DNA of 64,000 nucleotides, from positions 1 to 64,000 of IMG/VR virus record IMGVR_UViG_3300028801_000008. One strand, 5' to 3'. The stretch is from a virus. The notes beneath the pieces were generated by a model. It saw only the letters and a list, made by a program, of their open reading frames with translations, ran no database searches and had not been told where the DNA came from. Of this stretch, positions 3,200-57,528 are shown piece after piece (the first letter of the stretch is position 1; each line of letters opens with the position of its first letter). A program made the translations under genes and the position numbers.

Positions 3200-3200
3200 C

Positions 3201-3274: not shown

Positions 3275-3294
3275 ACATAGAAAAGGAGGGCGTC

Positions 3295-10405: not shown

Positions 10406-10427
10406 GTCCTACGGGCATTTAGTGAGC

Positions 10428-10433
10428 TATAAT
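10428..10433 (+). promoter_or_regulatory. -10 box (TATAAT) of the GIY-YIG endonuclease, leaderless arrangement
   Basis: GAGCTATAAT followed by six bases and ATG at 10440, the same spacing and the same TGC-ATG junction as at 8186. No -35 box or Shine-Dalgarno is seen. Confidence 0.6.
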
Positions 10434-10439
10434 AGCTGC

Positions 10440-11912: not shown

Positions 11913-12221
11913 ATGTTGGATTGGGGAGCACGGCAGCGCAAGCTCAGCAAGATTCGCGGGTATGATGCGCAGGAACAATCTACTATTACACTCACCATTA
12001 CTGGTCCCAAAGATTTCGTAGACAGGTTGGCGCGCCACATTTCATTCATCAAATGGCTGGGTGATATTGGTCATTCCTGCGTAGCCGGGATAAGCGTAGA
12101 CGGCGATGGCAGCGATCGAATCAAGGTGGCGGAGGAGCTCCCATCCATCAAAGAATCGGCGGTTAAAACGCACGGAACCTACCCAGACCAATGGGAGAAT
12201 GCTGAGAAGATGGACCTGTGA
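11913..12221 (+). CDS. Unidentified neck-region protein
   Basis: 102 aa from ATG 11913, two bases after the previous stop. Soluble, with a predicted mixed fold (STITLTITGPKDFVDRLARHISFIKWLGDIGHSC). Its stop overlaps the next GTG (GTGA). Not recognised. Position suggests a neck role. Confidence 0.6.
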   Translation: MLDWGARQRKLSKIRGYDAQEQSTITLTITGPKDFVDRLARHISFIKWLGDIGHSCVAGISVDGDGSDRIKVAEELPSIKESAVKTHGTYPDQWENAEKMDL

Positions 12222-12793
12222 TCTCAGTAGCCGATGTAGTCGTCGATCCCGACATGATAGCGCCGAAGCCGTTCACCATATTCCGCAGCACGGATACGTG
12301 GGTGCTGGGCGGAGTGCAGTCAACAGTTACACCGCTGCAGGCATTCGGTCCAGTCCAGCAATTGTCTCCGAAAGAAATACAGATGCTGCCAGAAGCCGAC
12401 CGCGTAGAAGGTGTGCGTGCTTTCTGGTGGACGCAAGCCTTATACGTAACGCGCGGAACTGCTCCGGTTCCCAGCACTCACGGTGAGGTTCCAGCTGGTT
12501 CTGGTACTACCTACACACTATCAGAAGTACCGCCTGAAGACACCGCCACCGTGTACGTCAACGGTTTGCTGCAGATTCCTGGCATCGACTACATGATAGT
12601 CGGCAACGTACTTACATTCACGAATTCCGTCGTCGGCACGCTCTACATCACGTGGCCATTCACGGCCTACGTAGGCGCGGCGGCCAGCGACATCTTGCAG
12701 TATGAGCATGAGCAGTACCGAGTGATCTCGGTCTACAGAGATCCAGGGGGCGGGTACTTCAAAGCCTTGGCCCGCAGAATGGACGCCGCCTAG
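12218..12793 (+). CDS. Head-closure-like connector protein with an inserted beta module
   Basis: 191 aa, GTG start overlapping the preceding TGA. The outer parts resemble phage head-closure/stopper proteins: VLGGVQSTVTPLQAFGPVQQLSPKEIQMLPEADRVEG and, at the end, DILQYEHEQYRVISVYRDPGGGYFKALARR. Residues ~95-148 (GTTYTLS...VYVNGLLQIPGIDY) are the shuffled beta module also present at 10018 and 24564. The module probably projects from the ring. Confidence 0.6.
   Translation: MISVADVVVDPDMIAPKPFTIFRSTDTWVLGGVQSTVTPLQAFGPVQQLSPKEIQMLPEADRVEGVRAFWWTQALYVTRGTAPVPSTHGEVPAGSGTTYTLSEVPPEDTATVYVNGLLQIPGIDYMIVGNVLTFTNSVVGTLYITWPFTAYVGAAASDILQYEHEQYRVISVYRDPGGGYFKALARRMDAA
12502..12663 (+). repeat. Shuffled beta module, copy 2
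   Basis: Second copy of the ~53-residue unit, with TYTLSEVPPEDTATVYVNG followed by the LQIPGIDY core, inside the head-closure-like protein. Confidence 0.55.
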
Positions 12794-23303: not shown

Positions 23304-24344
23304 ATGGCAACCACCAATCTTCTGCAGTGGAATCCCACCGCAGCGAATCAAGAGAATGATGCGGCCTACTTGGCCGACTCACAGCGCGCGGGAGGAGCGA
23401 CGGACCCCTCCCTGTTCCTTTCGCCGCTAGCGAACAAGGTGTTCTACCAGATGTCCACGTATCTGACTGCCCTGTTCACGGCGTTCGCTGCCAAGGGCTT
23501 CACTACGTCGGACTCCAATCTGTCTACGCTTACCGCCCAGTGCGCCAACTTCCTGACGTCGGCGGACTTCAGGGCCAATTTGCAGCTGGTGACGTACGCG
23601 CCAAATGTAACGTTCGACATGTCGCAGTCGCTGGGATTCGAAGTAAGACTCACCGGTAATGCGGATATAACGATAATCAATCAGCAAGTTGGCGATTTAC
23701 TGACTGTGGTACTATCTCAGGATGCCACGGGCGGGAGAACAGTCACGTGGTCCGGCGATGTAATTGGCGCAGGCGCTCTGGATACGTCGCCGAACGCGGA
23801 GTGCATATTGCTGTTCAAGGTCGACGTCAACAGCAATCTGGTTCCAGCCGCGCCCGTGCTATCCGATATTAACGGTATAGTAGGCACCGCCATAGGTGCC
23901 GCCGCGCCGTCGACCGGAGCGTTCACCACGCTGACGTTGGCCGCACCGGGTGCGGCTGGCCAGGTGCTGACGAACGTCGGTGGGTTCTTTGTGCCGCAAT
24001 CGCCAGGTTTTTCACGCGTAACAAACTCAAACGGTAGTTACAGAATCTCTCCTGATGGAACCATAGAAGTGTGGGGTAGCATCAACGTCCCATCCACCGG
24101 CAACCAGTTTGCGAATGCTGCTATTGTCTTTCCACACGGTTTTACAGCAGTGCCAGGACTGCAGGTAACCGTACAAGGCTTGCCAAGTCCTAGCGCACAC
24201 GCCAACGATATAGCTTCCGCCAGCGCGGTGTCAGTAACCACCACCGGAGCACAAGTATTCCTACAATGCTCCGTTCCTACAGGTGGTGGTGGTGCAAACT
24301 TCGACCAGGCAGTCACACTGGCGTTCTACGCGATAGGAAACTAA
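23304..24344 (+). CDS. Tail fibre protein with gp53-like C-terminal domain
   Basis: 346 aa; AAGGAG upstream. N-terminal attachment region, a middle with STGAFTTLTLAAPG (a linker motif also present in the next spikes), and a C-terminal globular domain (SPDGTIEVWGSINVP, FPHGFTAVPGLQVTVQG) that resembles the gp53-like C-terminal fibre domain used for receptor contact. Likely adsorption protein. Confidence 0.7.
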   Translation: MATTNLLQWNPTAANQENDAAYLADSQRAGGATDPSLFLSPLANKVFYQMSTYLTALFTAFAAKGFTTSDSNLSTLTAQCANFLTSADFRANLQLVTYAPNVTFDMSQSLGFEVRLTGNADITIINQQVGDLLTVVLSQDATGGRTVTWSGDVIGAGALDTSPNAECILLFKVDVNSNLVPAAPVLSDINGIVGTAIGAAAPSTGAFTTLTLAAPGAAGQVLTNVGGFFVPQSPGFSRVTNSNGSYRISPDGTIEVWGSINVPSTGNQFANAAIVFPHGFTAVPGLQVTVQGLPSPSAHANDIASASAVSVTTTGAQVFLQCSVPTGGGGANFDQAVTLAFYAIGN

Positions 24345-24347
24345 ATC

Positions 24348-24728
24348 ATGGCCAGTGAGACGACGACTCCGAATATAGGACTGCAAATTCCGGCGTACAA
24401 CCAGCCGAACTGGCAGGTTCCTACAAACTACAATTGGAACCTGCTGGATCTGATGCTTGGCGGCATCATACCGATGCCCGCCTTGGCCGACTTCATCATC
24501 ACGAATCTGGGCGAACAGATTGCCGCCAACGCCGTCACGGAGACCCCCGTGGGGGTCATACCTGGAAACTCTTACACATGCAGCCAGGTGCCTAACTTCA
24601 TATTCGGATTCTACTGGAACGGCATCCTACAACGCGACGGTATTGATTTTACGCTCTCCGGAGCCGTTATCACGATGACCAACAATGCAACTGCTACTGG
24701 AGACAATGTTTATGTCAAGTACATCTAA
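24348..24728 (+). CDS. Short fibre or collar protein ending in the shuffled beta module
   Basis: 126 aa. The N-terminus NIGLQIPAYNQPNWQVPTNYNWNLLD is a common tail-fibre start in phages. The last ~54 residues (GNSYTCSQVP...DGIDFTLSGA) are the third copy of the beta module. It probably anchors or caps a spike; it overlaps the next gene by 17 bases. Confidence 0.65.
   Translation: MASETTTPNIGLQIPAYNQPNWQVPTNYNWNLLDLMLGGIIPMPALADFIITNLGEQIAANAVTETPVGVIPGNSYTCSQVPNFIFGFYWNGILQRDGIDFTLSGAVITMTNNATATGDNVYVKYI
24564..24728 (+). repeat. Shuffled beta module, copy 3
   Basis: Third copy of the ~53-residue unit, preceded by the same ETPxGxxPGxxYT lead as copy 1. Confidence 0.55.
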
Positions 24729-27700
24729 GCGTGCGCTGCTTTGCTTTCTGCTCTTCTTTTGCGCCGCTTTCGCCGTCTCCGCGCAGACTGTGATAAACCC
24801 CGCGTCGCAAATTCGGTGGCCGGCAATCACAGGCACGGTGGATCCGGTGTCGCCATTGTGGACGTGCACCTCGGTCAACTATGGGCAACCGTACACCAAC
24901 ACTGTAAGCAACACGTTATTCGTGTGCTCTTCCGCCGGATGGGTGAATACGGCTGGCGCTGGAACGGCCATTAGCGTCAATGGCTCAGGCCCGCTGTCGT
25001 CACCCGTGAACTTCGCCAACTCGAGCGGCAATGGGGCGATCAACGTCACCAACCCTTCGGGAATCAATGTACTAGAGACTCTGGCGAACCCCTTCTCTCT
25101 CATCAACGGGGTCAATTGCCCCCTGGGTAGTGCCGGATGCGCCATACCTCCCTTCTGCGCTGGCCCAACCTGCGCTAATCTCGACCAGAATAACCCCGGA
25201 TTCAGCGTCGGCGCAGCTCTTACTACGACTGCCTCAATCACCTCGACATCCCTTGTCATTCCAGTAGCGTCCACCGCAGGATGGCCGTCTACGGGATGTG
25301 GATGGACGAACGGAGCGGTGGAGTTTATATGCTGGGATTCGACAACCCCCACGTCGCTTGTATTGAATCAGCTAAGCCTTCGTCGCGGAGGTAACGCATA
25401 CGCGGCTGTGTCTCATCCGATCAACACCAATATTATCGGAGCCGTCTACACACAGGCATCTAGTCCCACGACCCAGCAGAATTTTCAGGTGGCCTCGTCG
25501 GGTCAAGGTGGCTTGTTCAATGGAATCAATCCGGGCGTAACATTCCAGACGTCATTCGGCGGCACGGTTTACATGCCCGACCTGCTCGCAGCAGAGGGGG
25601 GGATATACGCTCCGAATGGAATCGCGTTCCAGCCGGGTGGAGGAAACTTCGTTAATAGCAAGTCGAGCGCTACGTCGCAGTTCGTCACCTGCACGCCCGT
25701 AGGAACGCCCAGTGGGCTGTTCTGTAACGATGAGGGGAACTGGGTTGCGGCGGGTGGCGGATTCTCTTTGACGGCGGGATTTCTCCCCTATGCTGTAACA
25801 TCTTCTACGCTCGGTGACTCGCCCATCGACAACGGAATCACCAACCCAGGCGATGTGACCATATCCCTACCCCTGACCGTGGGTCCCCAAGACAATACTA
25901 ATCAACCATCTCTCTATGTTTACGAAGAGAACTTTGGATCAGGCGGAGAACTTTCTCCGATGTTAGGAGTGCAAGGTGCCGCAGGAGTCCCGTTCAGGAT
26001 AGAGGGAAGCTTGGCGACAAATAGCGCGTGGACGGATGTGGTAAATGGGATTTACATGGGTCCACTTGACGACGAATCCGAAAGCTCTTTCCCAACTGGT
26101 AGTATCTGTTCATCGCAGGCTCAAGTCGGCGGGGGGAATCCTTTTGCTTGCGAAACATTTCTGACCAATACGATCACATTCAACACCGCAGCGGTTAGTG
26201 GTGCGCCCGGCGGCTCCGTTACTTTTCAGAACGCCGGATCTACAATCACCACGATTGTACCTACCGGCCTAGAACTCAACTACCTAACCCCCAGCACCAG
26301 CCCGCTCTGCTATCCCGCAGGCTCTCCTGCGGTGGTAACTAACGTTGGCTGCACGGGCGGTGGACTCTCCGGCCTCACCACGGGATTCTTTCCGATTGCA
26401 ACGTCATCCACGACTGTGGGCAATTCCCTGCTCGACTACAACGTTACAAATCCAGGCTACTTCACGTTTGGAGCGCCGATTCTCGCGGCTACGGGTAGCG
26501 AGGTAAACGGATCGCTAATCTGCACGGCGGCGAACGCGGTATGTCCAGCGACCGCAGGAATAACGTCCGTCATCGGCCCTGTCACGACCGTTACCGGCCC
26601 TTCAATCTCCATCGTTGGAGCCGGGGTAACGCAGACGGGAAGCACCTTCACCATCGGTGGGGGAGGCTCGGGCTGCGCTATCGGAACTTGCGTGAACAAC
26701 GCCGGAACCAGCAATCAGTTCGTCACGCAGTCAACTGGCACGTCCTACGGATTCACCGAAACCAACACGACGCCGAGCAACAGCTTCCAATTCGATCAGA
26801 CGGCGTTCGACAGCTTCAGCCCCGGTCACAATAGCGGTCAGAGTTTCAACGGCAACAGCGACTGGTCGGTGTTTTCGGTTCACCCGGGTTCATTCGAGTC
26901 CGCAACTGCTGGCATCAGTCAGTATGAGGGCTGTCTCTTCGCGCACACCTCCGAGGGCGACACCCACTGCAGCTACGACTACATGTCCGCGGTCATAAAC
27001 TTGGTGAACGCTAATGACGAGGGCGGCTGCTGGAAGTGCGTCCACATCAAGCAAGTGGGCGAACTATTCGGTCCCGTGGTATCTGCCACCTCGGGGGCCA
27101 ATAGTACTACGCTGCTCGTGGTTACCGGGCCATCGCAGGCGGGCGACTGGAGTGAAATGCCCGCTAATTCCAACCAGTTTCCGGTTGGGCTGTTTATGGT
27201 CAATCAGACCACCGGGGTCTCGGGGCCATATACGGTAAGCGTCTACACGCCCAACGTGGACGGAGCCAATGAGTACACCCTAAGTTCGGGTACCGTAACG
27301 CCCTCGACGGCCTATGGAACCATCGCGAGCTGCACGAGTTCGCTCCAAGGAAACTTCGGCGTGTACGGCGCGCAGAACTGCACGATCAACGTCCTCGGTG
27401 GAACGAACGTAGCAGGCTTCGCGACGGGCTCAGATATCTTCCAAGTCGGAACGAAGGAGGAAGAGGACACTGTCACCAGCGTCGGGACACTCGGCGGCGG
27501 AACTCAGACCATCGTGCTTGAATCGCAGTATCCATTCCACACGGGAGACTTTATCGGGCAGGGCGGCCCGGGCGGGCAGGTTCTAGGCCCGAACGGTTCA
27601 ACAGTGGCCACGGTCGATTTCATCGCTGGCGCCATCGACTCCACCCATGTAATCTTCGGGCATTGCGTAAAGGGAAGCTGCGCGGGCAACGGAAACGTCG

Positions 27701-29229
27701 TCAAGCCAAGCGCGAACCTCCTGCCCAACCTGTCGCTCTCACGCAACAGCGGCACGGGCGTGGTGACGGCCACGGCTCCGAACACCAACTTTCCCCCCTA
27801 CTTCTGGCCCGCCGGTTCGACCATCGTCGTCAGCGGGGCGACACCGTCCGACCTGAACGGGACTTTCACCGTCGCTTCGAACACGCTAAACCTCTACAAC
27901 ATCGTCCTCACGTGGACACAGTCCGGAGCGACCGAGACGGGCACCGGAGCCACCATCACGTCGCCACTGCCCCAGATCAAGATGTACGGGGCTGCAATGA
28001 TCTGCGGCACCAACAACGGCACGCAGGGCGACGCTAACCTTTGCACCAACCACGCGACTTGGAACGTGGCTGACTCGGTCGTTGGTTCCTCCTCGTCTGA
28101 GTACGAGGCCCAGGGTGCGACGATACGAATGGCGCAGTATACGGGGATCGACTTCAGCTTTCCCAGCGTCGGTATTACGCTGAATGACATCGGGCCGGTC
28201 GACGTCCTGTATGGGATGCGCGTGCAAAACAATCCGGGAAATGGGGTCGCCAACACTGCGTATGACATCGACGGCTCATACTCCCAATTCATCCATTCGT
28301 ACTTCACGCCAGGCAACAACGGGTGCGTGCTGTGCGTTGTCGACGCGAATCCTAACGGCGGAACCCCGCTCCCGTACTTTATCTTCGACGAGCTGGGCTC
28401 CAACGGCGGCATCCTCTACACCTACTCGGCGAACAGCTACACGTTCGGAAACAACGGCCCCACTGGAACGGTGATAGCCAAGGAGGTGACTGCCACAAGC
28501 GCGGCGAGTTCCTTCGCTGCGGGAACGACCATCGGTGGCATCCTTCCATGCCTGCAGAATGGAACAGATTGTCCGAGCGTAAGTATTCCATGGGCGACCC
28601 CGGGTGCAATCGGATCCACGACGCCGAATAGCGGAGCGTTCACCACTTTGACGGCAACGAGCCTTGCGCTCGGTTCATCACCTCCGACCTGTGGCGCTGG
28701 AGTATCTGGTTGTGGCGCCTTTGCGGAAGCAGGAACGCCCGTTACCGCAGCGGCTGGTGTGGACACTATCCGCGCAGACTCCTCTCACTTGTTCAAGCTG
28801 ACTCTAAACGGCGGGTCGGAATTCACGTCCCTCATGAACTTCTCCACCGTCAATTTGGCCAGCGGCTCGGCTGGAGGAGTCACCGGACTTCTACCGAACG
28901 CGAACATAGCGCACCCATACACCGCCATCTCCAATCCGATCACCTCCGCCGGAGGCGGCAGTGGAACGGGAACGATCACCTGCCTGACGGCGACGTGCAC
29001 GAATCTGCGAGGAACTTACTCTGTCGCGGGTGGCACGTTTGCGACTGGTACGTTCTTGACGTTGGTGTGGCCCACGACTACTACGGCGTACGCTTGCACC
29101 GCTACGCAGAACGGCGGGGCTAGTCTAGGCATCGGGAACTCAGTCGCAACGGCAACAGGCGTCAGCTTCACCAACACCGCCACAATCCTGGGCACCACAG
29201 TAACCATTAACTACCAGTGCCAACCTTAA
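24712..29229 (+). CDS. Giant tail spike / adhesin with N-terminal signal peptide
   Basis: 1505 aa from ATG 24712, with GGAG ~10 bases upstream. Residues 1-23 are a Sec-type signal (basic SKR, then ALLCFLLFFCAAFAVSA and AQT). The rest is Thr/Ser/Gly/Asn-rich and beta-structured, with many Cys, a rarity in phage fibres. Motifs include repeated GxxTG(F/S)FPIATSS units and near the C-terminus a PGAIGSTTPNSGAFTTLTATS linker. Its length and site between fibre and lysis genes mark it as a host-recognition protein. The catalytic activity, if any, is unknown. Confidence 0.75.
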   Translation: MSSTSKRALLCFLLFFCAAFAVSAQTVINPASQIRWPAITGTVDPVSPLWTCTSVNYGQPYTNTVSNTLFVCSSAGWVNTAGAGTAISVNGSGPLSSPVNFANSSGNGAINVTNPSGINVLETLANPFSLINGVNCPLGSAGCAIPPFCAGPTCANLDQNNPGFSVGAALTTTASITSTSLVIPVASTAGWPSTGCGWTNGAVEFICWDSTTPTSLVLNQLSLRRGGNAYAAVSHPINTNIIGAVYTQASSPTTQQNFQVASSGQGGLFNGINPGVTFQTSFGGTVYMPDLLAAEGGIYAPNGIAFQPGGGNFVNSKSSATSQFVTCTPVGTPSGLFCNDEGNWVAAGGGFSLTAGFLPYAVTSSTLGDSPIDNGITNPGDVTISLPLTVGPQDNTNQPSLYVYEENFGSGGELSPMLGVQGAAGVPFRIEGSLATNSAWTDVVNGIYMGPLDDESESSFPTGSICSSQAQVGGGNPFACETFLTNTITFNTAAVSGAPGGSVTFQNAGSTITTIVPTGLELNYLTPSTSPLCYPAGSPAVVTNVGCTGGGLSGLTTGFFPIATSSTTVGNSLLDYNVTNPGYFTFGAPILAATGSEVNGSLICTAANAVCPATAGITSVIGPVTTVTGPSISIVGAGVTQTGSTFTIGGGGSGCAIGTCVNNAGTSNQFVTQSTGTSYGFTETNTTPSNSFQFDQTAFDSFSPGHNSGQSFNGNSDWSVFSVHPGSFESATAGISQYEGCLFAHTSEGDTHCSYDYMSAVINLVNANDEGGCWKCVHIKQVGELFGPVVSATSGANSTTLLVVTGPSQAGDWSEMPANSNQFPVGLFMVNQTTGVSGPYTVSVYTPNVDGANEYTLSSGTVTPSTAYGTIASCTSSLQGNFGVYGAQNCTINVLGGTNVAGFATGSDIFQVGTKEEEDTVTSVGTLGGGTQTIVLESQYPFHTGDFIGQGGPGGQVLGPNGSTVATVDFIAGAIDSTHVIFGHCVKGSCAGNGNVVKPSANLLPNLSLSRNSGTGVVTATAPNTNFPPYFWPAGSTIVVSGATPSDLNGTFTVASNTLNLYNIVLTWTQSGATETGTGATITSPLPQIKMYGAAMICGTNNGTQGDANLCTNHATWNVADSVVGSSSSEYEAQGATIRMAQYTGIDFSFPSVGITLNDIGPVDVLYGMRVQNNPGNGVANTAYDIDGSYSQFIHSYFTPGNNGCVLCVVDANPNGGTPLPYFIFDELGSNGGILYTYSANSYTFGNNGPTGTVIAKEVTATSAASSFAAGTTIGGILPCLQNGTDCPSVSIPWATPGAIGSTTPNSGAFTTLTATSLALGSSPPTCGAGVSGCGAFAEAGTPVTAAAGVDTIRADSSHLFKLTLNGGSEFTSLMNFSTVNLASGSAGGVTGLLPNANIAHPYTAISNPITSAGGGSGTGTITCLTATCTNLRGTYSVAGGTFATGTFLTLVWPTTTTAYACTATQNGGASLGIGNSVATATGVSFTNTATILGTTVTINYQCQP
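28591..28827 (+). repeat. Shared spike linker module, copy in the giant spike
   Basis: Encodes about 79 residues beginning WATPGAIGSTTPNSGAF and continuing through a GVDTIRAD core. A homologous unit starts the next spike at 29456. Confidence 0.6.
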
Positions 29230-29239
29230 GGTGAAACCG

Positions 29240-32053
29240 ATGACTATGAGAAAGCTTCTCTTCTTGCTGGGGCTGCTCTTTGCGGCAGCTCCAGCCGTCG
29301 TTTCTGCGCAGACCAACCTGCAGCCTGTGCAGTATCAAAACTACACGCCTACCGGCGCGTGCACGCAGCCAAATTGGCTCGTCGTTACGGTCAATGTTGG
29401 AACGTTTCAGTGCATCAACGGCGCGTGGGTTCAACTCGGTAGCGGCACGGTAAACTGGGCATCACCCGGCGCGATCGGCACCGGCACGCCTAACTCTGGC
29501 ATATTCACGTCCCTAGCAGCCACGGGTGGCCTAGCTCTGGGAACCACACCACCTACATCCTGTTCGCACACCACTGGATGCGCTGCGTTTGGTGAATCCG
29601 TCACGTCAGGAGCACCCACCGCGGGCGTCGACTACATTCGAGCAGACGCCACCACGCACAGCTTTCTTCAATCACTGAATGGCGGCGCGGAGACGCCTTT
29701 AAGCATTGGATTGACTAGCTTTACCGTGGCCAATCTTTCGCCGCTGTTTACGGCGGCCTTGGGGGCTAATCCGACTACGGCACCAGCCCTGGCATTTACG
29801 CTCAGCAATGCGTCCGGGAGCACACTGTTCGGCAACTGCACAGGCTCTACAGCGGCACCGAGTTACTGTGCGCTTACGGTGGCCATGCTGCCAACAGGAA
29901 TACCGAATAGCAACCTAGCGACTCCCTTTGTGCAACTCTCTGGCGATGCAACCAGCACCTCTACAGGCGGAGCCACTACAGTAAAGGGAATCAACGGCAC
30001 GCTGCTGTCTGGGTTGGGGACTGGGTTGCTTTGGAATACAACTTCTACCGGAGTGCCGTCCATTGCAACAGCCGCGCAGGTGCTTGGATCGTTCAGCACT
30101 AATGTCGTCTATGCATCCAAGATCATCGGCGTGACTCCCGGAGTTGCAGTAGTGCCGGGAAGTTCAGCAACCGGAACCGTCGACTCGGCAGGGCCAATCA
30201 ATTCCACCCTCGCTTCGGGGAACATCCACTTGATGATGGATACTGGGGTTGCTCTGAGCACATCTTTAGTCGTTGGATCGAATACATGGATTGAATGTAC
30301 GTCCCCTCAGTACGGATTCATCATGCAGGCGGCGGCGAACGTTCCGGTTATCGTCAATGCCCATCAGAACGCCCCGACTACTACGAGCGGAACGGGTGGT
30401 TATTTAGTCTCGAACCAGACCGATTCCAATATCCGAATCACGGGTTGCACGCTAAATGCGAACTCGCTTCAAGCGGTGACAGGCAGTGGCAACGGACAAG
30501 GAACGGCGCACACCACAAACGGGTCGAATCTTTGGATCTTCGGCGTCCAACTGCTCAGTGTAAATGGCGTCGTCATGGACTATGACGAAATCTATGACTC
30601 AGGCACGTACAGCGCGATGTTCTCGAACGATTCGAACGTTTGGCTGAACCACAATTATCTACATCAGATCGTTCCGATGGTTCTCAAGAAGAACACGGAT
30701 GGCTTTCACTTCACCGGCCCTGACTCTAATATCTACGAGAGCGAAAATGTCATCGTGTCTGGAGACGACGCCTTAGCTTGGAATCCCGACGACGGGAACG
30801 AGACCTGCTCGACGTGCTATCCAACTGCCATTCACTTTGGATGGATTCAGCATGTGTTCGCAGATAACAACTTGATCGACGGGGCCGCTGCCGGGCCTCT
30901 TGTCTACAGCAGCACCGAACTCGCCGATGATATTCATATCAACAATACGAGCGGGACAGTGCTTGGCAACGACATAGAGATTGCCAAGTTCACGACGGGG
31001 AACGGAAATGTTGGATCGGTGCATATCCACCAACACACATCCCAGTCCAACGGCTCTCAAAATCCATATTCTCAGCCTTATCTCGGCTACTATATCAATG
31101 CGAATTACAAACTAATCGACATCGATGGGCCGACCCTGGTGAATCCAGCGGCTGCCGTTTCTGGCTGGAATTGGATCACGCACAACGTAGTCACTCCGGG
31201 CGTTCTTTCTATTCACAACGCGACCATCAACACGACGGCAACCACAGTTACGGCGAACCTGATTCAAATCACCGGAGGCGCAGCTCCGCAGATTCAACTT
31301 GGTGGAATCAACTGGGAGGACATCAACACTGGAGCCGCAGCGGTGCTTGGTGGGAGCGTAGTACCGACAAGCCTCACGGCTTCGAATTGCAGCCTACCGG
31401 GTGCTGGACGACTTCTTGCCGGAGGCTTCGCCCCGACCTACCAGAACGGCGATTGCTTCACCAACCTATACCCCGGCGGTGCGACAGTCTACGTAAACAC
31501 GATATTCAACGAAGCTGGATCAGGTACGTTGCTTGCAGGAACTGTTCCTGCTACCTGTACGGCGGGCAGCGGCTGCACATGGGCTTTGACAGGTGGACAA
31601 GACTTCGCTTATGCATCCGGCGGTGGCGTGTCCATCTCGGTACCCAACACCACCGGCAACGAAGACCTAATCAACACCGGCCAGACAAACGAAACGATTC
31701 GTTTCAATCTAGCCACTTGCACTGGGACTTCCACTTCCGCTGTGTGCCAGATTGGAGTGCGCTGGACTAACTCCTCCAACTTCACCGCCATCAATATATT
31801 GGCAACGACCGGGGCTTACCAAATCTACGATGTGGTGAGCGGAACCGCGAACCTAAAATACACCAGCGCCACAGGTACTGGAACTGGCAACTACACCATT
31901 ACACTTTCCAGCACAAGCATCACAGTTGCAGGCCCACAGGCCACAAGCCCTGCCGAGACCATTGCAAACACCGGGACTGACATGGGCATCACGATGCAGG
32001 GATCGACAGCTACCGGCATGAAGCTGTCATCCATGTCGGCAAAGAGCTTCTAA
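29240..32053 (+). CDS. Signal-peptide-bearing beta-helix spike with GH28-like (polygalacturonase-type) active site
   Basis: 937 aa from ATG 29240 (AAGG 8 bases upstream; an upstream GTG at 29231 is less likely). Residues 1-25 form a signal peptide (RKLLFLLGLLFAAAPAVVSA). A parallel beta-helix follows at ~300-650, carrying GH28-like catalytic blocks NTDGFHF and SGDDALAWN (the paired Asp residues), which hydrolyse uronic or other polysaccharides. The C-terminal ~200 residues resemble a carbohydrate-binding beta-sandwich. Likely a capsule or slime depolymerase. Confidence 0.75.
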   Translation: MTMRKLLFLLGLLFAAAPAVVSAQTNLQPVQYQNYTPTGACTQPNWLVVTVNVGTFQCINGAWVQLGSGTVNWASPGAIGTGTPNSGIFTSLAATGGLALGTTPPTSCSHTTGCAAFGESVTSGAPTAGVDYIRADATTHSFLQSLNGGAETPLSIGLTSFTVANLSPLFTAALGANPTTAPALAFTLSNASGSTLFGNCTGSTAAPSYCALTVAMLPTGIPNSNLATPFVQLSGDATSTSTGGATTVKGINGTLLSGLGTGLLWNTTSTGVPSIATAAQVLGSFSTNVVYASKIIGVTPGVAVVPGSSATGTVDSAGPINSTLASGNIHLMMDTGVALSTSLVVGSNTWIECTSPQYGFIMQAAANVPVIVNAHQNAPTTTSGTGGYLVSNQTDSNIRITGCTLNANSLQAVTGSGNGQGTAHTTNGSNLWIFGVQLLSVNGVVMDYDEIYDSGTYSAMFSNDSNVWLNHNYLHQIVPMVLKKNTDGFHFTGPDSNIYESENVIVSGDDALAWNPDDGNETCSTCYPTAIHFGWIQHVFADNNLIDGAAAGPLVYSSTELADDIHINNTSGTVLGNDIEIAKFTTGNGNVGSVHIHQHTSQSNGSQNPYSQPYLGYYINANYKLIDIDGPTLVNPAAAVSGWNWITHNVVTPGVLSIHNATINTTATTVTANLIQITGGAAPQIQLGGINWEDINTGAAAVLGGSVVPTSLTASNCSLPGAGRLLAGGFAPTYQNGDCFTNLYPGGATVYVNTIFNEAGSGTLLAGTVPATCTAGSGCTWALTGGQDFAYASGGGVSISVPNTTGNEDLINTGQTNETIRFNLATCTGTSTSAVCQIGVRWTNSSNFTAINILATTGAYQIYDVVSGTANLKYTSATGTGTGNYTITLSSTSITVAGPQATSPAETIANTGTDMGITMQGSTATGMKLSSMSAKSF
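29456..29697 (+). repeat. Shared spike linker module, copy in the GH28-like spike
   Basis: About 80 residues beginning WASPGAIGTGTPNSGIF and continuing through GVDYIRAD, homologous to the C-terminal region of the preceding spike. Confidence 0.6.
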
Positions 32054-34215
32054 TGAGACTCCTACTCCTATCTACGCTGCTTCTGATGTGCTCGGCCCCC
32101 GCGTGGGGCACGACTTGGTTCGTCCGCCCTGGCGGCGGAACGAGGTACTCGACCTCGGTGACCGCAGGCCAGTGCAACGGGCAGGCGGACGCCGATTATC
32201 CTGGCACGGGCACAGATCAGCCATGCGCCTACAACGACATCCGATACCTATGGAGCGACAACAGCGGGAGCAACCCGGCATGGGTCATCGCTGGCGGGGA
32301 TACGGTAGTCATCCGTGGATGTCACGCGCTCGCGGGGCAAACAAACCCATCGAATCCCAACTGCCGGCTGGGCTACGACAACGCGTTGAACGGCAATCCG
32401 CCCAACCAATGGTGCGGTTCCGGCAACGGTAACACAGGGTGCTTCAACCCCCCAATCCCAGCGGGAACCTCGGGAGCGCACACGAAGATCCTCGGAGGCT
32501 GCGCGTACGGGACCTACACATGCACGCCAATCAACAACAACTACCCCTATGGCGCTACCAATGAGACACAGTTGTTCGGGGGCTTCGGGCTTGTCTTCAC
32601 GTTCAACCTGCAATCGACGCAGCATGTGGACATCCAGGGCATCGAGTTGACGACGCACAACGGCGTCTGCACCTACCAGACGGGTTCCCCGGCCTATCCG
32701 CGCGGCTGCTCCAACAGCCCTCCCTACGACGACTACGCGGTGACGGGCTTCATCTTCAACAATCAGTCTGCGGACATCAACCTTCAGGATGTCTATGTTC
32801 ACGGATTTACGGCCTCGGGACTGTTCGGACCTATTGGCGGAACGATCAATTTAACTAGGGTTTTCTCTGGCTTCAACGCATTTGCTGGATGGAATTTCGA
32901 CGATGCCAACCTCTTTAATAACAACAGCACACAATATTCCATAGACAGTAGCAATAACGTAACTATAATTGCTCCCGCAGGCACGCCAAACCCTACAAAT
33001 GGCTTGAATCCAGGAATGATCGTAACCCTCTCCGCCTTTGGAACCTCAACGTTCCTAAACGGTCAAGTGATCTCTATAACTTCTGTTACTTCAACACAGT
33101 TCACTGGTCCCCTCCAAACACCTCATGCCGCTGTGGGTCTCACCACAGAGAGCGGTCATTGGATCAACAATTCTACCCCTGACTATCCAGGGTCAAGCAT
33201 CAACGCACAGTACGTGACGCAAATCTTCAATGGCTGCTACGAGCAGTATCCCATCACCAATACCTACCCGGCGCAGGTCTGCTACGACACCAACTCAGCA
33301 GGCTTTGGAGATAGTTGGAGCGGGCAGAACACGCCCTTGGTCTCGTTCACCTGCAACTATTGCGTGGACGACTACAACACGAAGGACGGCTTCATTGGCC
33401 CACACGTCGAGACCGCGAACATCACGATCACCAACTCCGTTGCAATTGGCAACATGGGATCGAACTGGAAGTGGGGCGGGGACGACTCGGTGGTCAACAC
33501 GACCCTATTCGAGAACAACCTCACGGTCAATAACTGTTCAAGGATGAGCGCGTCCATCACCGGAGCTCCGTCAACCTACAACCAGTACCTGACGGGCTTC
33601 TGCCGCGCTGGCGGCAACGGCATGGCCTCGGTGATCCCAACGGGCTCGACCTGGAACCTGATCAACAACACATTCATCACGGCTCAGCAGATAGCCATAT
33701 TCGTGGCCTGCAACGGCGCGGACTCCACCTGCCCATCGACCATCAACTCCACCAACAACGTGTTCCTTGGCTACGTCGATCCGAACAACCCCTACGGTGG
33801 AACCAACGTCCCCACGGTCTACGACTTCACCAACGGGCCGGGAACGGGGCCATCGGGCATCACGCTGAACGTCTCGCACAATGATGAGTTTGGCATGCGG
33901 AGTGGAACATGTCCATCGACTACGAATGGAACGATTTGCGTCAGTCCGCTTCTGTTGAATCAGCCCTCGCAGACGTGGGTGAGCGAAGCGGCTCTGGACG
34001 TGTTCAACCCCCTTGTAGCAAGAAACTCCTTCTACCCAACATCTGGCAGCCCCCTGCTGGCGTCAGACACGACAGGCGGCCCGTCAACCGACTACTACAT
34101 GGTGACCCGGCCAGTACCGGGAGCCATCGGAGCGGTTGAGTACCTTGCACCACCCGCCTTCATAGGCTCCCAGTTTTCCAGCGGCTCGGCATTCAGCAAA
34201 GGAACTTCATTCTAA
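32053..34215 (+). CDS. Signal-peptide-bearing right-handed beta-helix spike
   Basis: 720 aa, TAATG overlap with the previous gene. Residues 1-19 are a signal peptide (LLLLSTLLLMCSAPAWG). It then opens TTWFVRPGGGTRYS, the start of many secreted beta-helix proteins of soil bacteria. Recurrent Asn-rich turns (NITITNSVAIGN, TLFENNLTVNN) make a parallel beta-helix. Many Cys pairs suggest disulphides. It ends with a short Ser/Gly tail (SSGSAFSKGTSF). Third consecutive signal-bearing spike; possible depolymerase. Confidence 0.75.
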   Translation: MRLLLLSTLLLMCSAPAWGTTWFVRPGGGTRYSTSVTAGQCNGQADADYPGTGTDQPCAYNDIRYLWSDNSGSNPAWVIAGGDTVVIRGCHALAGQTNPSNPNCRLGYDNALNGNPPNQWCGSGNGNTGCFNPPIPAGTSGAHTKILGGCAYGTYTCTPINNNYPYGATNETQLFGGFGLVFTFNLQSTQHVDIQGIELTTHNGVCTYQTGSPAYPRGCSNSPPYDDYAVTGFIFNNQSADINLQDVYVHGFTASGLFGPIGGTINLTRVFSGFNAFAGWNFDDANLFNNNSTQYSIDSSNNVTIIAPAGTPNPTNGLNPGMIVTLSAFGTSTFLNGQVISITSVTSTQFTGPLQTPHAAVGLTTESGHWINNSTPDYPGSSINAQYVTQIFNGCYEQYPITNTYPAQVCYDTNSAGFGDSWSGQNTPLVSFTCNYCVDDYNTKDGFIGPHVETANITITNSVAIGNMGSNWKWGGDDSVVNTTLFENNLTVNNCSRMSASITGAPSTYNQYLTGFCRAGGNGMASVIPTGSTWNLINNTFITAQQIAIFVACNGADSTCPSTINSTNNVFLGYVDPNNPYGGTNVPTVYDFTNGPGTGPSGITLNVSHNDEFGMRSGTCPSTTNGTICVSPLLLNQPSQTWVSEAALDVFNPLVARNSFYPTSGSPLLASDTTGGPSTDYYMVTRPVPGAIGAVEYLAPPAFIGSQFSSGSAFSKGTSF

Positions 34216-34736
34216 TGGCCAACTTCGACGTCAGCTACGCATGGATCATGACTTCGGAAGACCCGACATATCATTACGCCATGGTGCCCGATCCGCCACC
34301 TGGCGCGCACGCCATCTCCGGCATCAACAGTCACTCCTTCCCGTCTGAATTCGCCGCCATAAACGCCGTACCACAAGCAGATCGCGGACCAGCCGTGCGA
34401 AACTTCTATCAGACCAAGTTCTGGAACCAGTGGTACGCGGCGCTGGCTACCGACGACCTAGCCAAGCGAGTATTCGATGAGGCGGTCAACGGCGGACCTG
34501 GTACGGCGGTATTCATGCTGCAGCGCGCCGTCAACACGCTGCTGCCGGAGGATGCTCAGATAAATGTGGATGGCGGTTGGGGCTCGAATACGGTAGGAGC
34601 GGCTAACTACTGCGACCAACCAACCCTGGTAGCAAACTTCATCACGGCGCGCATCACGCACTACAAGGCGATAGCGTCCGGCAACCCAACTCTCGCATCT
34701 GACTTGCCTGAGTGGATAGCGAGGGCAGAACGATGA
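34215..34736 (+). CDS. Endolysin (GH108-type muramidase with peptidoglycan-binding tail)
   Basis: 173 aa, TAATG overlap. The pattern fits glycoside hydrolase 108: ITSEDPTYHY-like start with a candidate catalytic Glu, GAHAISGINSHSFP, a helix VRNFYQTKFWNQWY, and a C-terminal domain (FMLQRAVNTLLPEDAQINVDGGWGSNTVGAAN) typical of the paired PG-binding region. It cleaves the glycan backbone at lysis. No signal peptide, so it needs a holin, encoded two genes on. Confidence 0.8.
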   Translation: MANFDVSYAWIMTSEDPTYHYAMVPDPPPGAHAISGINSHSFPSEFAAINAVPQADRGPAVRNFYQTKFWNQWYAALATDDLAKRVFDEAVNGGPGTAVFMLQRAVNTLLPEDAQINVDGGWGSNTVGAANYCDQPTLVANFITARITHYKAIASGNPTLASDLPEWIARAER

Positions 34737-35883: not shown

Positions 35884-36645
35884 ATGGGATTCAAATACGG
35901 AAAGAACGCCCCGAAGCGCAGGCTGAGTATGCCGTCACTTAGCGATTTCCTGGACAAGGCTGATACGTGGCCTGTCGCGCCCGCGCACGGCTGGGAGTAC
36001 GCCGTGCCAGACGCCGCGCTCAGCATCCTGGGTAACGACCAGTGGGGTGACTGTGCGTGCGCCGGGGCACTGCACCTTATACAAGCGCAGAGCTACAACA
36101 CTGGCCGTCCAGTGCAGCCGACCACCGCCGATGCGCTCAGTCTGTATTCCGCCGTAACCGGGTTCAACATAAACGCCGGTCCATCCGGAGACAACCCGAC
36201 CGACCAAGGCACGGCTCTGACCGACCTGTTGACCTACTGGCAAAAGATTGGCGTGCAAGTGGGAGTCTCCGCGCACAAGATACTCGCCTACGCGGCGCTG
36301 GATGTATCCAGCCTTGCGCAGATGAAGTGGGCCGCGTACACGTTCGGTGGACTGTACCTTGGCATACAGTGCCCGGAGCAGTGCCAGCAGAACACGTCCA
36401 ATTGGAACTTCGCGCCGGGTCTGAAGCCCGAAGGTGGCCACTGCATCGTGCAGCTCGGCGAAGGTGCGGCCGGCGGCACTGTCAATAGCTGGGGCATGAA
36501 GATTCCGATGTCGAACGAGTTCATGCTTGGCTACATCGACGAAGGGTACGTCATTGTCACGGAGGACTGGGTGAACCAAAACAGCGGCAAGACGCCGTCT
36601 GGACTTGACCTGACCGGCCTGCTGGCAGCGGCCAAGAAGGTGTAG
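35884..36645 (+). CDS. Papain-like cysteine protease family protein
   Basis: 253 aa. The C1-type order is visible: GNDQWGDCACAGALHLIQ (candidate catalytic Cys), GGHCIVQLG (His) and VNSWGMKI (Asn in the NSWG motif of papain). Lies outside the lysis terminator in its own short operon. There is no signal peptide. The target is unknown; related proteins occur in soil bacteria and their phages. Confidence 0.7.
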   Translation: MGFKYGKNAPKRRLSMPSLSDFLDKADTWPVAPAHGWEYAVPDAALSILGNDQWGDCACAGALHLIQAQSYNTGRPVQPTTADALSLYSAVTGFNINAGPSGDNPTDQGTALTDLLTYWQKIGVQVGVSAHKILAYAALDVSSLAQMKWAAYTFGGLYLGIQCPEQCQQNTSNWNFAPGLKPEGGHCIVQLGEGAAGGTVNSWGMKIPMSNEFMLGYIDEGYVIVTEDWVNQNSGKTPSGLDLTGLLAAAKKV

Positions 36646-36647
36646 CC

Positions 36648-37190
36648 ATGACTGAAAGCACGTACGCTCTTGTGTGGGATCGCAGCTGGGCTCTGCAATT
36701 CGACCAGAACCAGAAATATCTGGTAATACGCTTTATCGATGAACCAGGAATAATATCCGGGCTCATCACGTGGACCACCGACAGTAAGTGGTGCCACACC
36801 GAGGCTCTAAGCCGCGATGGTCAACACTGGGTAGGGGCACATTCCGGAACAGGAGTTAACTCTAGGCCACTGAACTGGTGCAAACCGACGCGGGAACGCC
36901 GCTACGCCATACCGGTCACGGATGCCGAGTACGAGACGGCCATGACCTGGCTGGAATCGAAGATCGGGTGCCCGTACGACTACGCGGACATAGTTGGTCT
37001 ATTCATACACGCGCGCATCGGTGTGGACAACCATCTGCTGATATGCTCCGCGTTGATGACGCTGTTCATGCAGCAGGCAGACAAGTGGCCGCTCAACTGT
37101 CTAGAGGACGAAGACAACCTCGTCACACCCGAGACGCTGCACCTGAGCCCTCTATTCATGAACCACTGCATTTACGCGTTGGCAGCGTAG
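36648..37190 (+). CDS. Permuted papain-fold (YiiX / NlpC-P60-like) hydrolase
   Basis: 180 aa, two bases after the previous stop. It has the permuted NlpC/P60 order: WCHTEALSRDG (catalytic His first), IGCPYDYADIVGLF, and LLICSALMT (catalytic Cys), with a C-terminal TPETLHLSPLF. Members act on lipids or peptide links. Pairing with the preceding papain-like gene is notable. Confidence 0.65.
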   Translation: MTESTYALVWDRSWALQFDQNQKYLVIRFIDEPGIISGLITWTTDSKWCHTEALSRDGQHWVGAHSGTGVNSRPLNWCKPTRERRYAIPVTDAEYETAMTWLESKIGCPYDYADIVGLFIHARIGVDNHLLICSALMTLFMQQADKWPLNCLEDEDNLVTPETLHLSPLFMNHCIYALAA

Positions 37191-39185: not shown

Positions 39186-40058
39186 TTAATTATAAGCTTC
39201 GCCGCTGGCGCGGAACTTCTGCTTCGCTCTGCCGCCGTTGTACTTCACCTTGCAGTATTTGCTGAATTCACACAGACAGTTCTGTAGATTCTGCGCATCC
39301 AACACTGGGCATTTCAACTTTGGCTGAGCTACCTTCATCAAATCCAGCAGCGTAGCATGCCATTCCTCTTCGTTCCAGCGCGCAGTTGGTTCTCTTCCCA
39401 CGAGCCAGTTTAACCCTCTACGACTTCCTGGCCCTGACATTGCGAACGTCATCCAGTCTTCAGCCTTCTTCATAGAAGGCAGGTGCTTAATATCCGCCAC
39501 GACCTGCGCACTCATGAACCCACCTCCGAAGCCGTGATGTAACATGAGCGCTTCTTGCAACGTACTAAGCTCACACCCGGTACGCACCAAGTTACCTAGC
39601 AGCTTACGGCTGTTCCACAACGGCCCAAGCACCTGGTCGGCCAAGTACGACGCCTTGGACTGTCCTTTGGTAGCACCGACGGCGTTTATCATGTATGCCC
39701 CTGTGAACGTCGCCATGCCGTCCTTCTTGCGCGCCTCCATCAGCTTCACAAACCGCTTCGGATTCCATTTTGATGGATAACCGAGCGCTTCCAGGCTCGC
39801 CGGCAAGTTCACCAACCGTGCCAGCGCCATTGCGAAGACTACCGTGTCGTAGTCCTCCGCGTGCGGCTGTAACCAGTTTTCGTGTATACACTTAGTGACC
39901 CTGTCGTCTTCGCGACGTACGTTGGTAAAGCGGTATTCCAACAGGATAGGATCCTTCGTCCACGGAGCAGGCTTCCCAGCCAATCGCTTCTGATGTATGG
40001 ACCAACGCTCGTTCACGAAGTACACGAACTCTTCAAGCCTTGGGAACTGCTTGCTCAT
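39186..40058 (-). CDS. Alpha-glutamyl/putrescinyl thymine pyrophosphorylase-like protein (aGPT-PPlase clade)
   Basis: 290 aa. The N-terminus follows the family order closely: FVYFVNERWSIHQKRLAG, PWTKDPILLEYRFTNVRREDDRVTKCI, then ALARLVNLPASLEALGY. The C-terminal half has KAEDWMTFAMSGPGSRRGLNWL and CEFSKYCK. These DNA-glycosylase-fold proteins take part in turning 5-hydroxymethyluracil in phage DNA into amino-acid or polyamine hypermodified thymine. Its overlap with the nucleotidyltransferase gene supports one pathway. Confidence 0.75.
   Translation of the reverse strand: MSKQFPRLEEFVYFVNERWSIHQKRLAGKPAPWTKDPILLEYRFTNVRREDDRVTKCIHENWLQPHAEDYDTVVFAMALARLVNLPASLEALGYPSKWNPKRFVKLMEARKKDGMATFTGAYMINAVGATKGQSKASYLADQVLGPLWNSRKLLGNLVRTGCELSTLQEALMLHHGFGGGFMSAQVVADIKHLPSMKKAEDWMTFAMSGPGSRRGLNWLVGREPTARWNEEEWHATLLDLMKVAQPKLKCPVLDAQNLQNCLCEFSKYCKVKYNGGRAKQKFRASGEAYN
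39189..39194 (-). promoter_or_regulatory. -10 promoter box (TATAAT) before the thymidylate-synthase-like gene
   Basis: GAAGCTTATAATTAA on the minus strand, 22 bases before the ATG, immediately next to the stop codon of the upstream gene. No -35 box is seen. Confidence 0.5.
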
Positions 40059-40752
40059 ACGCCTCCAGTTCAGCCGGTGTGCCTACGTGGTTGAATTCAT
40101 CGGCTGCGATCACCATGGCCGTGGTCAACTGCAAATTGTTGTGGCACGGTGCCAGATAGTACTCACCGTTAGTCATCGTACTGAGAATCACCATCTCGTA
40201 GATGGCGCGCTTGGCAAGCTCCCACGACTGGAATGCATGAACGCCGCAAGAAGCAATACCGCTTATGCGCTGCTTCTCCACCACCTGCGTCACTAAGTGA
40301 TCCTTCATGATAACGAAACTGTAGCGCTCGCTGTCATCCTTAGGACGGAAGCACAGCATAGAAGACTGCACGCCAGACTTGAAGCAAGCCTCACTAAACT
40401 CAGAGAACTTAGCAAGCACACCACTCTTGAAGATGGTGTCACAGTCCATGACCAGCACCGGATCGGTATCGCGAATCACACCTGACGCCGCCAACAAAGA
40501 CATGGCCGCACCCTTCTGCACGAACCGAATGGGCACGCGGATCGGATGCATGTTCTTCGGCGTTTGCTTGTGAAGCTCACTGTACAAATCCACCAAGCAC
40601 ACAACGACAGGCGTCTTGATGATTTCAGACGCCTGGACCAGCGCATGCTGTATCATCGTGCGACCGCGCGCTGGGAGCAGCGGTTTAGGCGTCATTACCC
40701 CGTTACTGACAAATCGTTCACCGCGTCCTGCCGCCAGAATAACTACTTGCAT
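40033..40752 (-). CDS. Sugar-nucleotidyltransferase-like protein
   Basis: 239 aa. The NTP-transferase signature MQVVILAAGRGERFVSNG followed by PKPLLPARGRTMIQHAL gives the GxGxR...K binding loop. VLVMDCDTIF supplies the metal-binding Asp. Such enzymes form NDP-sugars or CDP-/UDP-activated groups. It overlaps the kinase gene by 10 bases and the aGPT-PPlase-like gene by 26. The activated substrate is unknown. Confidence 0.8.
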   Translation of the reverse strand: MQVVILAAGRGERFVSNGVMTPKPLLPARGRTMIQHALVQASEIIKTPVVVCLVDLYSELHKQTPKNMHPIRVPIRFVQKGAAMSLLAASGVIRDTDPVLVMDCDTIFKSGVLAKFSEFSEACFKSGVQSSMLCFRPKDDSERYSFVIMKDHLVTQVVEKQRISGIASCGVHAFQSWELAKRAIYEMVILSTMTNGEYYLAPCHNNLQLTTAMVIAADEFNHVGTPAELEAYEQAVPKA

Positions 40753-41480
40753 GCATCCACTCTCATTTCCGTGCGAAGTTCTTCCGCCAAATTACGCAGG
40801 CCCGATACGACGTCAATGGCCCATACACGCGCCTGCGGCTGCACACCATACAGCCGAATGATGTGCGTCAGCATGTAGTAGATACAGAGGTCCAGGTTCA
40901 ATTTTTGCTCGACCAAGAACTTACGTATCATGTAACGTTCCGACTCCAGGCAAGGGCGACCGTAGTGGAAGTACGACTGCAGCAGCTTGCCGCCGTCAAG
41001 CTCGGCCTCTTGTGGCAATGGACGCGTACTAGGGTCTAGCCAATAACCGTCGCGTACGTAGTTCTCCAGGGTGGGATCACCATGTACGACCTGTGCTCCT
41101 TTGCTTTGCGTACTACCAATTCGTTCGTACCACGTCGTCAGCGCCGACCGGATAATAGGCGGAAAGCCTTCTGTGCGAGTGAACGGCTCTACTTGGACTA
41201 CGTGGTGGCGACGGCGGCCCTCATAATCGTAGACATGCGCCACCGGCAGGTCCCATAAAGCAGCCAACCGGGCCAGCGCCAACGGCAGGTCCAGTACCGG
41301 CGATGGTTCGCCCATTACCGGCATGACGTAGCCGCCAGTCGTTATACCTAGCACCGGCACAAATACGTCCGGATAGGCGCGCATCTTAGCGCCTTGCGTC
41401 GGCACACCATGGCCACTCTTATAGATACACGGCTCTAGGGCTGCTCCGCTGTTGCGCTGAATCTTGTGGTGAATGATCAC
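40743..41480 (-). CDS. APH-fold small-molecule kinase
   Basis: 245 aa from GTG 41480 (GTGA overlap). The C-lobe motif QVVHGDPTLENYVRDGYWLDPS matches the HGDxxxxN catalytic loop plus the DFG-position Asp of aminoglycoside phosphotransferase / choline kinase-type enzymes; the N-lobe is reduced. Kinase plus nucleotidyltransferase parallels the LicA/LicC logic of phosphorylating and then activating a small alcohol. Substrate not identifiable. Confidence 0.65.
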   Translation of the reverse strand: MIIHHKIQRNSGAALEPCIYKSGHGVPTQGAKMRAYPDVFVPVLGITTGGYVMPVMGEPSPVLDLPLALARLAALWDLPVAHVYDYEGRRRHHVVQVEPFTRTEGFPPIIRSALTTWYERIGSTQSKGAQVVHGDPTLENYVRDGYWLDPSTRPLPQEAELDGGKLLQSYFHYGRPCLESERYMIRKFLVEQKLNLDLCIYYMLTHIIRLYGVQPQARVWAIDVVSGLRNLAEELRTEMRVDACK

Positions 41481-41644
41481 GCCGTGCCTCCCATCATCTT
41501 CCGTACGACGACGCGGTAATCCTCCGTGCCGCTCTTGTGCGCGTCCTCCACCAGTTTGCGATTACCACGCCGCACCCACCGGTTGAAGCAGCCAAGGTTA
41601 CAGAACCGATTCGCACACTTCTTCTTGCAATTTTCGCACTTCAT
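41477..41644 (-). CDS. Tiny Cys-rich zinc-finger protein
   Basis: 55 aa between kinase and glycosyltransferase genes with ATGA and GTGA overlaps at its two ends. The N-terminus MKCENCKKKCANRFCNLGCF gives five Cys (3, 6, 10, 15, 19), a likely zinc site, followed by a basic helix (NRWVRRGNRK). Not recognised; possibly a subunit that brings the modification enzymes to DNA, which is inference. Confidence 0.7.
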   Translation of the reverse strand: MKCENCKKKCANRFCNLGCFNRWVRRGNRKLVEDAHKSGTEDYRVVVRKMMGGTA

Positions 41645-42564
41645 GCCGTCACCGCTTTCTTTGCTGCCTTCCGTACGCTTGGAACCTTGGGCTGAGCCAG
41701 AGAGGAGAGGTAAGCCTTCTTCCAGGCTACCACGACCTCCTTACGCACAGCCGTCGTGGTGTACGCGCGGTCCACCACCTTCACGAAGCCGGGGTGTAGC
41801 TTGGCCAACTCGAAGCACTGGGCGTCGCTGTACTCCATACTGCGCTCGCCGCTGCACCCTCCCGCCGCGCCGAATGTGCCGTACTCGTTGTTGAGTAGCT
41901 CGACGTAGTTGTGGCACTCATGGCCTTTACGCAACATGGACAACACCACGTGGAAGTCCTCGCGCAGACCTATGGCGTCGAAGCGAATCTTCTCTTTGAG
42001 ATAGAGCTCTCGGTTGACACCGAAAGCATACATCATCCTTGCGTTCTTCTCCCACGCCGCTTTCTTCTTGTCAGAGTGACGCCGATGCGCGATGCCGATC
42101 ATACCGAGGTCGTGCTCTTTACCAGCGTAGGAATCCATCTCCTGGAATAGCTTCAAGAGGACCTTGTCCTTAGGATAGCGACGCATCATCAGCGAGGTTC
42201 CAGCCGGTGCGTCCGGAGCTACGGCGTACGCCTTGCGATGCTCCTCCCACACGCGCCACTTAGCCGGGCAGCGCTCGAAGAACGCCAGGTCGTCGTCCAT
42301 CATAAATAGAAACTTGCCGGCTACGTTCTTCATAATCCAGTGACGCTTCGTAGCGATGGATGTAGTGCCCTTGGCTGTAAGCACTTGGTTAGCCGGGTAC
42401 AGCTTCTTCAGCGCCTTGGCTTCGTCAGGCAACGAAGCCACGAGGATGACCTCGGCCTGGAGCGCAGTCGGCAGCGCCTGGAGCGTTATCTGCTTGTTAA
42501 CACGACCGTGCGTGGGGATGATGAGTGTTAGGTTTTTCAGGATCGTTCTCCTCTTACGTGGCAA
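41641..42564 (-). CDS. GT-A-like glycosyltransferase
   Basis: 307 aa. Opens LTLIIPTHGRVNKQ, a GT-A Rossmann start, then VAGKFLFMMDDDLAFF, the Asp triad that holds the nucleotide-sugar metal. RFDAIGLREDFHVVLSMLRKGH is like the acceptor-side region. Clearly related to phage DNA-modifying or capsular transferases. The start is uncertain: TTG 42564 lacks a Shine-Dalgarno, whereas GAGGAG stands 7 bases before an in-frame CTG at 42540. Confidence 0.7.
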   Translation of the reverse strand: MPRKRRTILKNLTLIIPTHGRVNKQITLQALPTALQAEVILVASLPDEAKALKKLYPANQVLTAKGTTSIATKRHWIMKNVAGKFLFMMDDDLAFFERCPAKWRVWEEHRKAYAVAPDAPAGTSLMMRRYPKDKVLLKLFQEMDSYAGKEHDLGMIGIAHRRHSDKKKAAWEKNARMMYAFGVNRELYLKEKIRFDAIGLREDFHVVLSMLRKGHECHNYVELLNNEYGTFGAAGGCSGERSMEYSDAQCFELAKLHPGFVKVVDRAYTTTAVRKEVVVAWKKAYLSSLAQPKVPSVRKAAKKAVTA

Positions 42565-57515: not shown

Positions 57516-57528
57516 AATGCTCCTTGCA

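Follow-up and report, generated by a model that had tools for sequence, protein, structure and literature searches.

Assembly of tailed-phage virions is assumed to take place entirely in the cytoplasm. Signal peptides occur on virion proteins of the filamentous phages, whose coat proteins are assembled at the inner membrane by extrusion. The joining of separately made parts is described for T4, in which long fibres attach to fibreless particles (PMC3004832), and disulfides in tail parts are described for Agrobacterium phage Milano, in which they cross-link the baseplate and the receptor-binding proteins (PMC10811340). Among bacterial proteins, WceF of Pantoea stewartii is an exported, glycan-related beta-helix protein (PMC7949094).

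The three-gene cassette and its signal peptides

The DNA analysed here, referred to as the window, covers positions 1 to 64,000 of a viral record of 101,166 bases from a soil phage. It contains a contractile-tail (myophage) module with capsid, sheath, tape measure, baseplate hub and wedge, and a DUF2612 baseplate protein. A conventional tail fibre without a signal (23304..24344; 346 residues, with a sub-threshold H-lectin-like C terminus) is followed by a signal-less adaptor of 126 residues (24348..24728), three large genes on the same strand, and an endolysin (34215..34736; phrog_315, E 3e-17; PG_binding_3), the start of which overlaps the gene 3 stop; all lie on the plus strand. In relatives too, a counterpart of the 346-residue fibre stands upstream of the adaptor.

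Gene 1 (24706..29229) is predicted to encode an exported fibre-like protein of 1481 mature residues with 38 Cys, and has relatives with exchanged modules; its ORF spans 24685–29229, and the start was placed at 24706 or 24712 from the signal score and an upstream GGAG. The predicted product of gene 2 (29231..32053), also fibre-like and exported, has 914 mature residues and 16 Cys and shares with that of gene 1 a 98-residue stretch at 50% identity. Gene 3 (32053..34215) would encode an exported right-handed beta-helix protein of 701 mature residues and 20 Cys, from a family shared with host secreted proteins. All three genes lie inside the tail module, beside baseplate and lysis genes, as is expected of tail fibre genes. 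The overlap of adaptor and gene 1 in different frames led us to consider a programmed frameshift fusing the two; it was ruled out, gene 1 having its own start, ribosome site and signal.

Other features of the window were also recorded. Beside the endolysin is a conserved pair of genes (35884–37190; L002 13002–14297; L023 19232–20527). In relatives (L002) one of the two encodes a papain-like C1 peptidase; the other encodes a small conserved protein, which in the window is phrog_1128-like. Homing-type endonucleases of the HNH and GIY-YIG/NUMOD3 kinds (8198–8725 and 10422–11303) lie within the head-tail gene block, and ARAGORN placed a tRNA-Gln (3201–3274, plus strand) inside the ORF at 3022–4566. 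On the minus strand are a phage SPFH/Band 7 protein with an N-terminal membrane segment, outside the tail module (56604–57653; Pfam E 4e-30), and, near thymidylate synthase, a possible DNA base hypermodification cluster (40033–42564) with a nucleotidyltransferase (40033–40752) and a TET-associated glycosyltransferase, TAGT (41641–42564).

Signal peptides were predicted with a home-made scorer, which has n-, h- and c-region terms and a threshold of 14; in a trial, OmpA, PhoA, MBP and Bla scored 14.5–23, versus −14 to 6 for GFP, LacZ and a T4 fibre. The signals of gene 1 (24706..24783, plus strand; MFMSSTSKRALLCFLLFFCAAFAVSA, followed by QT), gene 2 (29231..29308, plus strand; MKPMTMRKLLFLLGLLFAAAPAVVSA, followed by QT) and gene 3 (32053..32109, plus strand; MRLLLLSTLLLMCSAPAWG, followed by TT) scored 28.1, 28.3 and 18.8, respectively, equal to or above textbook signals. 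Each has the n-, h- and c-regions and the AxA-type cleavage site of a Sec preprotein, with cleavage predicted between VSA and QT in genes 1 and 2 and between AWG and TT in gene 3. The next-best ORF of the window scored 10.6 and is spurious. Chance signals were ruled out: no shuffle matched its gene's score (0 of 2000), only 1 of 4000 random internal 45-mers scored 14, and the 2 of 94 control phage proteins of at least 250 residues that scored above 14 carry annotations as an OmpA-like protein and a lipoprotein. Relatives of gene 1 keep a signal although these signals share just 25% identity. An earlier, sequence-only reading had described three consecutive Cys-rich genes with strong Sec signals and had proposed signal-peptide prediction as a check; all three genes were positive, far above the rest of the window, and their 38, 16 and 20 mature Cys compare with a Cys content of 0–1.5% in the structural genes for head and tail of this window.

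Because exported bacterial proteins favour an even number of Cys (PMC7678975), parity was counted in complete proteins of at least 200 residues and at least 4 Cys. After clustering at 60% identity, the mature forms of signal-bearing viral proteins gave an even:odd ratio of 42:2 (44 clusters; p = 1e-10), and after clustering at 35% a ratio of 34:2; relatedness lowers the independence of these counts despite the clustering. With the signals left on, the same proteins gave 22:22, and of the 22 cases with an odd Cys count in the signal itself, 21 had an even mature part. Non-signal proteins of the same contigs gave 86:75, and control phages 24:17. Of the two odd exceptions, that in L028 is real and that in L043 is an antisense ORF. 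Most Cys of gene 3 are near-invariant across 20 relatives. Export, cleavage and complete disulfide pairing would be expected to produce just such a rule, one seen only once the signal is cut off where predicted; if the signals were relics, the rule would decay. Sequence statistics give good, if indirect, support to functional signals and to probable export, cleavage and disulfide bonding of the proteins.

The putative docking module, the adaptor and related phages

In relatives of gene 1, pairwise identity is 0.54–0.35 over residues 1–60 and about 0.17, the background level, beyond, so that a conserved N-terminal, putatively virion-proximal module is joined to a variable remainder. The mature protein begins with this module (24784..24957, plus strand; 58 residues, QTxINPxxQIxWPxITG...C...YGQPY...C..GW), which has a conserved Cys pair and is a putative docking domain. 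A profile of the module recovered 26 ORFs over all fetched loci, all 26 with a signal (a few scoring 10–14), and in every one the module starts at the cleavage site or at most 3 residues away. Among 396 Acidobacteriota genomes, for which the top candidates per genome were scored, the module was found in none; the positive control recovered it in 5 of 5 viral records. Blast gave no match to genes 1 and 2, the docking module or the adaptor in 50,697 phage records.

The next complete gene after the adaptor is signal-bearing in nearly all of 26 loci, with one exception (L079), and the docking module directly follows the adaptor in nearly all complete cases; in L058 it lies in the second gene. The C-terminal half of the adaptor is found again in two other head-tail genes (9404–10405, DUF4054/phrog_302, and 12218–12793). 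In L082 and L084 its N-terminal half forms part of a fibre fusion and is preceded by a signal peptide. Modules are exchanged among the signal-bearing fibre-like proteins, and one such relative (L022) matches three tail-fibre PHROGs, with a best E of 2.5e-10.

Relatives were drawn from IMG/VR, and all their ORFs were scored for signals. Runs of two to six consecutive signal-bearing genes proved to be the rule and recur across many contigs; L023 and L025, for example, have six such genes, L002, L010 and L022 have four to five, and L007 has three. Several cassettes are closed by a small signal-bearing protein of 126–134 residues with two Cys (...SAQTKHxMLxVxF...VYRC), Ig-like with a weak Pfam match (L002 10627–11031, L022 18883–19278, L023 16877–17260 and L028 5780–6160).

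Signals were also found in isolated phages. In the podovirus-like Tunturi_1 and Tunturi_2, which infect Tunturiibacter psychrotolerans X5P2, they are carried by gp12, gp13, gp14, gp16 and gp17, the score for gp13 (12.8) being slightly below threshold; gp13 of Tunturi_1 combines its signal with what by eye is a similar adaptor-like motif. In the siphovirus-like Tunturi_4, they are carried by gp113, gp114 and, from an upstream start absent in the annotation, gp111. The deposited start of gp111 (14864; L031 14507–17602) removes 119 residues including the signal peptide, and the restored N terminus is a paralogue of that of gp113 (54% over 103 residues). The ‘virion structural protein’ labels in the Tunturi records are computational predictions. 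In the early region of Tunturi_1, gp78 (L048 11745–12947) is annotated as a tail protein and starts with a lipoprotein-type signal (LLLTGC); its sequence suggests an exported lipoprotein more than a component of the tail. A search for Tunturi_1-like viral contigs via gp11 found none.

Fibres of Tunturi_3, T7, crAss001, half of phi14:2 and B124-14 were scored and had no signals; the scan covered Tunturi_4 outside its middle part and a minor part of Tunturi_5. Since Tunturi_3 infects the same strain as Tunturi_1, yet has signal-less fibres, export is not demanded by the host. From the relatives of gene 3 and the Tunturi phages, we infer that the window phage infects Acidobacteriota.

Folds and origins of genes 2 and 3

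For gene 2, the GH28-type catalytic motifs put forward in the sequence-only reading found no support. No GH28 match was obtained from Pfam even at E = 10, nor from PDB sequence search, and the assignment to polygalacturonases of this family was set aside for lack of support; the strings NTDG and GDD do occur but alone prove nothing. Pfam gave a sub-threshold Beta_helix match (0.066), and the structure model reached a pLDDT of 35, there being few relatives, with a C-terminal beta-sandwich modelled in part.

As a single chain, gene 3 was modelled by AlphaFold as a right-handed beta-helix (pLDDT 75, pTM 0.79), for which the nearest Foldseek matches were GH110, GH136 and PL9 enzymes, followed more weakly by phage tailspikes, all at low TM-scores of 0.2–0.4. 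Of the beta-helical character that had been ascribed to all three proteins, the part concerning gene 3 is therefore borne out by the model, and that concerning genes 1 and 2 is not. The gene 3 family is present as chromosomal genes in 14 of 297 Acidobacteriota genomes, with some copies on megabase contigs; those in L034 and L036 lie among housekeeping-like genes and are secreted or lipoprotein forms. In the gene 3 tree, host copies are interspersed with viral ones, with at least two moves between the groups. Taken together, the chromosomal copies and the interleaved tree support host capture, or repeated exchange, for gene 3 only among the three, so that support for the origin from host secreted proteins suggested earlier does not extend to genes 1 and 2.

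Possible virion fibres or free enzymes, and known systems

We incline, by a little, to the reading that the cassette encodes receptor-binding fibres or spikes that are Sec-exported, fold under oxidising conditions and become attached to virions when the cell lyses. The proteins would be made as Sec preproteins, exported late in infection with removal of the signal, and folded in the oxidising periplasm with nearly all Cys in disulfides. At lysis, for which the endolysin is encoded next door, they would come together with completed particles; gene 1, at least, may dock via its N-terminal module on the signal-less adaptor built in the cytoplasm. By analogy with T4, whose fibreless particles accept long fibres, such late joining seems feasible. 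Beta-helical and other distal domains would bind or cut host surface polysaccharide; more speculatively, the proteins could, while in the periplasm, trim the receptor polysaccharide of the dying cell, and action on nascent polysaccharide there could keep progeny off debris. Gene 3, exchanged with host secreted proteins, could act as a spike or as a free enzyme. In Tunturi_1, no evident fibre candidate lacks a signal, the remaining large structural ORFs being adaptor-, nozzle- or internal-like by eye and without PHROGs matches, so its receptor-binding proteins are probably signal-bearing; in Tunturi_2 too, the signal-bearing proteins are the evident fibre candidates. Against the reading as exported fibres stand the fused forms in L082 and L084, in which the adaptor domain is itself exported, and gene 3, which lacks the docking module and is closely related to host proteins. 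The window phage has its signal-less 346-residue fibre, so the exported set need not be its receptor-binding set; that fibre could be its receptor-binding protein instead. Whether podo-, sipho- and myophages of Acidobacteriota share a two-compartment assembly, with heads and tails made in the cytoplasm and fibres exported, disulfide-bonded in the periplasm and attached at lysis, we regard as evenly balanced.

A mixed cassette, in which genes 1 and 2 are exported virion fibres and gene 3 is a free secreted depolymerase of host origin, is quite possible: the docking module is found in gene 1 only, and gene 3 begins directly with the host-shared fold. Gene 3-type proteins nevertheless also stand first after the adaptor (L058) and behind long fibre-like N-terminal parts (L011 and L017). 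We think it rather unlikely that all three are secreted non-virion enzymes or adhesins that act on or around the infected cell, by loosening exopolysaccharide, blocking or destroying receptors or feeding the host, and never join the particle. The functional-looking signals and predicted disulfides would suit such proteins, as would the closer likeness of gene 3 to GH110, GH136 and PL9 enzymes than to tailspikes, its secreted host relatives, the presence of another fibre in the window phage, and the example of bacterial WceF, a free exported enzyme with a tailspike fold (PMC7949094). These points are opposed by the virus-only N-terminal module with its variable remainder, the adaptor fusions, the tail-fibre PHROG matches and the investment of up to six genes and several thousand residues; moreover, no evident receptor-binding protein would remain in Tunturi_1.

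The sequence-only reading of all three genes as free depolymerases is countered by the virus-only, anchor-like module of gene 1, its adaptor partner and the signals on all evident candidates of Tunturi_1 and Tunturi_2; its premise, that export is not to be expected of virion proteins, may itself be at fault in this case. That the signals are vestigial or decorative remnants of host secreted genes, on proteins that assemble in the cytoplasm, is very improbable. Gene 3 does have host relatives, but clusters below 35% identity still follow the even-Cys rule, which shows only once the signal is removed, signal character is kept at 25% identity, and the boundary between module and signal is constant.

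Prior export of fibres would divide assembly between two compartments and open disulfide chemistry to adhesins, and receptor-active proteins would function within the host envelope before the cell lyses. A signal peptide is not enough to class a soil-virus gene as an auxiliary metabolic enzyme, and gene callers can miss signal-bearing starts, as with Tunturi_4 gp111. Three isolated phages, Tunturi_1, Tunturi_2 and Tunturi_4, open the exported-fibre idea to direct testing.

A literature search found no paper that presents signal peptides of tail fibres in this way, and as far as found an exported-fibre route is undescribed for tailed phages; subscription journals and preprints were outside its coverage, and the absence is weak. 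The genes resemble those of tailed-phage fibres and tailspikes in their position in the tail module, the conserved N-terminal module with a variable remainder (gene 1), the beta-helix (gene 3) and, in a relative, the tail-fibre PHROG matches. They differ from the known fibres checked (T7, crAss001 and Tunturi_3), which have no signals, in carrying a Sec signal and in being rich in Cys that are probably paired. The likeness to Milano covers disulfides in tail or receptor-binding parts, here predicted from Cys parity. With WceF they share an exported, glycan-related beta-helix protein, but WceF is a bacterial, Tat-exported free glycanase, whereas the genes described here are phage-encoded, have a Sec-type signal and lie in a tail operon. 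Unlike the filamentous phages, whose virion proteins also have signal peptides, the present phage is tailed and encodes an endolysin.
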